From contig NZ_CP073714.1 of NCBI RefSeq assembly GCF_023101145.1, positions 2,046,001 to 2,110,000 on the forward strand: a stretch of DNA of 64,000 nt, given 5' to 3'. This DNA is from Paenibacillus pabuli (GTDB lineage: Bacteria; Bacillota; Bacilli; Paenibacillales; Paenibacillaceae). Each line of letters starts with the position of its first letter. Positions within the stretch are counted from its first letter, which is position 1. The translations under genes were made by a program, and so were the position numbers. The notes under the pieces are model-generated. The model was not told the origin of the DNA. It saw nothing but the letters and a program-made list of their open reading frames with translations, and did not search any database. Shown here piece after piece: positions 27,826 through 27,940 of the stretch.

Positions 27826-27855
27826 TTGACAATATAGCCACACACCCGCATTAAT
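27826..27855 (+). promoter_or_regulatory. Possible internal promoter before ilvC
   Basis: TTGACA (27826-27831), an 18-base spacer and ATTAAT (27850-27855; four of six matches). The -10 lies inside the left arm of the inverted repeat, so transcripts from here would lack most of that arm. Speculative. Confidence 0.35.
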
Positions 27856-27940
27856 GAGTGGGTGTCTGAACGGATCGGATCAGACCAGAGACGCCAAAGC
27901 AGAAGAAGCGCCGGTCCCTTGAGACACCCGCTCATTAATG
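27842..27940 (+). promoter_or_regulatory. Large inverted repeat / alternative hairpins before ilvC
   Basis: The left arm 27849-27867 (CATTAATGAGTGGGTGTCT) and right arm 27922-27940 (AGACACCCGCTCATTAATG) pair over 19 positions with one G-U and a 54-base loop. Separately, ACACCC at 27842-27847 can pair with GGGTGT at 27860-27865, which belongs to the left arm, so a local 6-base-pair hairpin excludes the long one. No T-run follows, so it is not a terminator. The right arm ends about 20 bases before the ilvC ribosome site (GGAGG at 27961). The function (RNA processing, stability, switching or protein operator) is unknown. Confidence 0.75.

Follow-up and report, generated by a model that had tools for sequence, protein, structure and literature searches.

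A conserved, covarying RNA hairpin between ilvN and ilvC in Paenibacillales

The ilvN–ilvC gap of Paenibacillus pabuli

The window, the whole 64,000-nt stretch of Paenibacillus pabuli DNA that was analysed, carries the genes ilvB, ilvN, ilvC and leuA, the identities of which were confirmed by protein-family matches. Expression of the ilvB-ilvN-ilvC-leuA unit as a whole is first controlled by the T-box leader before ilvB. Its score lies below the RF00230 gathering score of 93, so that annotation pipelines relying on gathering scores would miss it. Downstream in the same unit, a long hairpin occupies the gap between the ilvN stop at 27677 and the ilvC ATG at 27976. The features of this region, with letters for those that recur below, are as follows.

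25058–25360, + strand: T-box leader 5' of ilvB (Rfam RF00230, 83.5 bits, E 9e-18)
27195–27677, + strand: ilvN, acetolactate synthase small subunit (NCBIfam TIGR00119, 213.8 bits, cut-off 56.9)
27840–27857, + strand: 5' flank (A), an imperfect direct repeat of the 3' arm, variable between lineages (repeat and pairing analysis)
27849–27878, + strand: left arm (B) with the invariant core GAGYGGG (alignment, covariation and repeat analysis)
27868, + strand: G of the G.G mismatch with 27921 (alignment of 54 relatives)
27879–27910, + strand: hypervariable apical region between the arms (comparison with relatives)
27911–27940, + strand: right arm (C) with the invariant core CCCRCUC (alignment, covariation and repeat analysis)
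27943–27946, + strand: GGGU motif (D) 3' of the stem, kept in most lineages (alignment and flexible-register counts)
27957–27965, + strand: ilvC ribosome-binding site AAAAGGAGG (read from the sequence)
27976–28968, + strand: ilvC, ketol-acid reductoisomerase (NCBIfam NF004017, 567 bits)

The initial annotation had described a 19-position inverted repeat with one G-U pair in this gap, and this repeat was found as described: CATTAATGAGTGGGTGTCT (27849–27867) pairs with AGACACCCGCTCATTAATG (27922–27940) at 19 of 19 positions, with a single U-G. It is part of a longer hairpin, whose 30-nt arms (27849–27878 and 27911–27940) are 87% complementary and form about 28 bp. The RNA of positions 27800–27990 folded at -58.1 kcal/mol (MFE z = -5.07), and none of 200 shuffled sequences folded as well. 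A comparable inverted repeat was present at one other place in the 64-kb window (30732) and in none of three Markov-resampled windows. The absence of a T-run, also noted before, was confirmed by a terminator scan of the window that returned 0 terminator-like sites at the hairpin; no U-run follows the stem in the window or in the relatives displayed. A covariance model of the hairpin, R1, found one strong place in the genome of the window at 75.6 bits, with the opposite-strand mirror of the hairpin at 47. The next-best match in that genome reached 18 bits, which rules out a dispersed repeat.

The hairpin fits no catalogued leader class, as had been proposed: a search of positions 24850–29200 against Rfam 15 at E <= 1 matched nothing except the ilvB T-box, and no RF00230 match fell in the ilvN–ilvC gap. 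A search with the Rfam gathering scores likewise gave no match to the hairpin. A published description of the hairpin was not found in the literature searched, and a transcriptome study of P. riograndensis is silent on ilvC. The hairpin is thus a new conserved cis-RNA absent from Rfam 15; its function most likely belongs to a known kind.

Two further observations concern the sequence around the hairpin. On its 5' side, there is partial conservation of a block at 27795–27825 (for example CTTTAACGAATTACTGCTTG..TTGCATTAAT) that is also seen in loci L172–L188 of relatives; in two genera this block may fold into its own small hairpin. The ilvC reading frame is open in the 5' direction across the hairpin to a GTG at 27862 (27862–27975), giving an ORF of 368 aa. 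The length of this open frame varies among relatives, and the extension through the hairpin is therefore probably due to chance.

Compensatory changes hold the long helix

Conservation of the element was examined within the genus, where searching 75 genomes at the DNA level matched the ilvN–ilvC gap in 61. Five genomes of the genus that gave no DNA match were inspected directly and had the same hairpin in diverged sequence. Named Paenibacillus records and further genera within the family were inspected for the element as well, and 54 non-redundant relatives were aligned as the covariation set. In the alignment, the core GAGCGGG / CCCGCUC is invariant, two positions are mismatched and the apical part is hypervariable. 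Across the 54 relatives, 89.5% of the cells of the proposed helix were paired, and 15 of its 23 pairs showed changes on both sides. Cells with such double changes numbered 142, against 42.7 after shuffling, and none of 500 shuffles reached as many; helices slid out of register by 1–3 positions had at most 40. The covariation check of this gap that the initial annotation had called for across Paenibacillus thus gave a strong signal for the long helix, and arms lacking conservation or covariation, which it had named as the outcome that would count against its claim, were not what we saw. The core itself changes in a compensatory manner in other families of the order, where six loci carry GAGUGGG/CCCACUC. 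These data show that the hairpin is a conserved, structured cis-acting RNA whose helix is held by compensatory changes.

The length of the helix is kept while its interior is free to vary. In 63 of 68 sequences, the helix had 20 bp or more, interrupted by isolated mismatches (median about 25 bp), and the mismatches drift between paired and unpaired states across lineages. The G.G at 27868/27921, for example, is G.G in 44 of the 54 relatives and a standard pair in 9, and both conserved mismatches turn into standard pairs in several lineages. The distance from arm to arm ranges from a few dozen to 211 nt. In the hypervariable apical region, we found neither a single-stranded motif in the loop nor conserved unpaired nucleotides resembling a ligand pocket. 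Since the length and sequence of the apical part are free and mismatches move in and out, the constraint lies on a long double strand beside the ilvC ribosome site and not on a ligand pocket in the terminal loop.

The kind of mismatch that is tolerated distinguishes RNA from DNA. Outside the two mismatch positions, the helix cells of the 54 relatives contained 104 G.U and 18 A.C combinations, whereas column shuffles gave 150 and 71; in a larger set, the helix contained 119 G.U versus 24 A.C. This asymmetry, with G.U tolerated and A.C depleted, is unexpected for a DNA inverted repeat, and it indicates that selection acts on the RNA of the ilvC-sense strand.

The R1 model matched 102 of 120 Paenibacillaceae genomes, covering 16 of 19 genera, and 122 of 200 genomes across the order, which belonged to Paenibacillaceae and two other families. 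Outside the family of the window, a class-wide sample gave only three matches, all of them weak (25–28 bits). Some misses within the family are false negatives, because two loci of one genus have the hairpin with arms 147 and 211 nt apart, far wider than elsewhere. All 19 loci fetched from R1 matches lay between ilvN and ilvC, directly upstream of ilvC. At two loci (L094 and L097), no leuA was detected downstream, and a terminator-like hairpin with a U-run stands at the end of ilvC; the ilvN–ilvC hairpin is nevertheless retained there, which argues that the element serves ilvC and not leuA. Together, arm covariation and gene association bear out the earlier suggestion of a structured element under selection and tied to ilvC. 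The other Bacilli examined had mostly short ilvN–ilvC gaps (29–104 nt in most) and no comparable hairpin. As a separate observation, in five loci of another genus, the stretch from the hairpin to the ribosome site contains a second structured insertion; in one example, AGCCC is able to pair with GGGCU beside the SD.

Possible functions of the hairpin

Judging from the sequences compared, the simplest and best reading, which we consider about as likely as not, is that the hairpin is a processing or protection element, by which the ilvC mRNA would be uncoupled from ilvBN within the polycistronic ilvBNC(-leuA) mRNA. This reading draws on the length of the helix (20 bp or more in 63 of 68 sequences), its position by the ilvC ribosome site, the free apical part and the missing U-run, and also on the precedent of the B. 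subtilis ilv-leu operon and on a second hairpin in the window that likewise has no U-run:

29002–29048, + strand: second strong hairpin, in the ilvC–leuA gap, no U-run (folding; equivalents in most relatives examined)

The stable double strand would define or protect an mRNA end. A double-strand-specific nuclease of the RNase III type might cut inside the hairpin, the nearly continuous duplex of about 20 bp or more that such an enzyme takes as substrate being available; alternatively, a single-strand endonuclease such as RNase Y might cut just 5' of it, with the stem blocking decay from the 5' side. Placement in an intercistronic gap with no U-run is what a processed hairpin would have. Together with the ilvC–leuA hairpin, ilvC could thereby gain its own, longer-lived mRNA and more IlvC than IlvBN could be made per transcript. 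The ilvC–leuA hairpins of other species differ in sequence and are similar in shape, apparently with compensatory change. Farther on, the long inverted repeat of at least 19 positions at 30732 lies 3' of leuA between convergent genes and is probably a terminator.

Two features go beyond what a plain protective hairpin would need. The core GAGYGGG/CCCRCUC is nearly invariant, more than a double strand requires; this is a hint that its sequence is specifically recognized, and a dedicated protein could do so. In many lineages, moreover, the 5' flank is similar to the 3' arm, and protection has no use for such a resemblance. In the window, positions 27840–27857 are an 83% direct repeat of 27924–27941 in the 3' arm, so that the left arm can pair with either partner.

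This repeat bears on the two-hairpin switch proposed in the initial annotation. The competing pairing of ACACCC (27842–27847) with the left arm is present in the window and, extended by a G-U and a C-G pair, forms an 8-bp hairpin, ACACCCGC/GUGGGUGU. The corresponding model is a bistable leader, in which A-B (8–12 bp) alternates with B-C, and translation of ilvC or the fate of its mRNA follows from a balance set by a protein, a metabolite or folding kinetics; we regard it as possible but doubtful. When counted in fixed alignment columns, the competing pairing showed no covariation (61.7% paired versus 62.0% in shuffles). Such a count is too strict for a hairpin whose register varies by lineage, and a free-register count and swaps of flanks were therefore used. 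In free register, A-B reached -12.4 kcal/mol compared with -9.0 for shuffled flanks, the local A-B fold had a mean z of -1.48, and A-B helices of 8–12 bp were found at six loci of relatives and in the window. When flanks were swapped between species, however, 471 of 5000 permutations did as well as the own flank, so that this preference was not significant. A-B is also lacking in about a quarter of lineages, 13 loci being examples, and its stability is far below that of B-C. In the ensemble, the SD just downstream is about half paired, but no anti-SD is conserved, and sequestration by an anti-SD was rejected as a conserved feature because the linker folds on itself like shuffled sequence (z -0.11). 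What stands of the earlier claim is therefore the alternative hairpin, in the window and in many relatives; the pairing on which switching would depend has no significant covariation. A switch is perhaps present in some lineages, but the conserved feature is the long helix. Slightly more doubtful still is the fuller proposal that flank A and arm C compete for B as a new class of regulatory RNA, through which IlvC output would be set independently of the T-box by some protein of branched-chain amino acid synthesis or by one of its metabolites. ACCC at 27844–27847 could, in addition, close on GGGU at 27943–27946. By eye this closing helix is clear in some clades, and at least 4 bp in flexible register were counted 60 times versus 52.6 in shuffles, which is suggestive only.

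The near-invariant core would also suit an RNA-binding protein, possibly a pathway enzyme, that docks on the GAGYGGG/CCCRCUC duplex with the adjacent mismatch and controls ilvC translation with no alternative folds. The core stays nearly the same although the choice of pairs would be free (alignment columns 19–23 and 120–124), and it lies directly 5' of the ribosome site. The G.G that such a protein would read, on the other hand, becomes a standard pair in 9 of the 54 relatives, and the apical loop offers it no single-stranded motif. We consider such a protein-binding site unlikely.

Processing or protein binding, both of them options named in the initial annotation, is, in any case, preferred over a DNA operator or promoter, either of which as the main function is contradicted by the G.U versus A.C asymmetry and by promoter hexamers that are not conserved. 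The -10 that had been suspected in the left arm would make the hairpin the 5' leader of an internal ilvC promoter. By eye, a TTGACA near 27826 is followed by CATTAAT at 18 nt spacing, and close relatives mostly have TTGAAA. A scan, however, detected nothing promoter-like there at its threshold, the hexamers are gone in other genera, and at two loci the hairpin almost abuts the ilvN stop, all of which makes this promoter very unlikely. An upstream ORF was rejected as well: the left-arm ATG (27854) is ACG in close relatives. Slightly less credible than the promoter is a pause in transcription, or partial attenuation, by which the downstream genes would be expressed less than ilvBN; a long stable stem in an intercistronic gap behind a T-box-controlled start would suit it, but the U-run is missing after the stem in the window and in the relatives displayed. 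The least probable reading is a DNA operator, in which repeated and inverted copies of ACACCCGC(TC)ATTAATGA bind a protein that represses or activates an internal promoter of ilvC: the window does hold three related copies (A, inverted B and C) and a palindromic CATTAATG, but the palindrome is not conserved in the alignment, copy A is gone from several lineages, the arm spacing extends from a few dozen to 211 nt, and A.C mismatches are depleted four-fold while G.U is tolerated.

An RNA that covaries throughout the order at a core metabolic gene suggests that ilvC dosage is set post-transcriptionally inside the operon in Paenibacillales. It offers a defined sequence for asking how the enzymes of a pathway come to be made in unequal amounts from one mRNA, and a ready-made element with which to tune expression in industrially used Paenibacillus.

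Comparison with known systems

In B. subtilis, ilvC forms a separate, stable mRNA. The ilv-leu operon of that species is of the same type as that of Paenibacillus, placed behind a T-box, and its cistrons are uncoupled by mRNA processing. This processing was reported by Mader et al. 2004 (J Bacteriol 186:2240), as cited for cistron uncoupling in PMC3997798, and is mentioned in PMC5794164. In the other Bacilli examined, in contrast to Paenibacillus, the gap is mostly short and a comparable hairpin is absent, and R1 gave no strong match outside the family of the window in the class-wide sample. Because the gap is usually short and the hairpin absent outside Paenibacillales, processing in B. subtilis must work differently.

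Intercistronic hairpins cut by RNase III are nearly continuous duplexes of about 25 bp with internal mismatches, placed between or before cistrons. The ilvN–ilvC hairpin is like them in duplex length and mismatches, which makes it a candidate substrate. PMC3997798 names the rncO and pnp leaders of E. coli among such elements and notes that few direct mRNA targets of RNase III are known in B. subtilis.

Among leaders of the pathway, the T-box (RF00230) heads the same operon at ilvB, and the ilvN–ilvC hairpin does not match that family. The Corynebacterium ilvB-II motif and other ilv leader motifs are likewise conserved RNAs controlling an ilvBNC operon; ilvB-II lies upstream of ilvB and acts through a uORF (PMC10272879). 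In contrast, the Paenibacillus element is internal to the operon and its left-arm ATG is lost in close relatives, which makes a leader peptide of the Corynebacterium type unlikely.

Stem-loops that stabilize the 5' ends of mRNAs, and processed operons such as cggR-gapA, have been reviewed (PMC3997798). In these systems, a stable 5' stem by a strong ribosome site slows decay, and processing uncouples the cistrons. Such stabilizers do not, however, constitute a sequence-defined family, whereas the Paenibacillales hairpin conserves both its structure and its core across the order.
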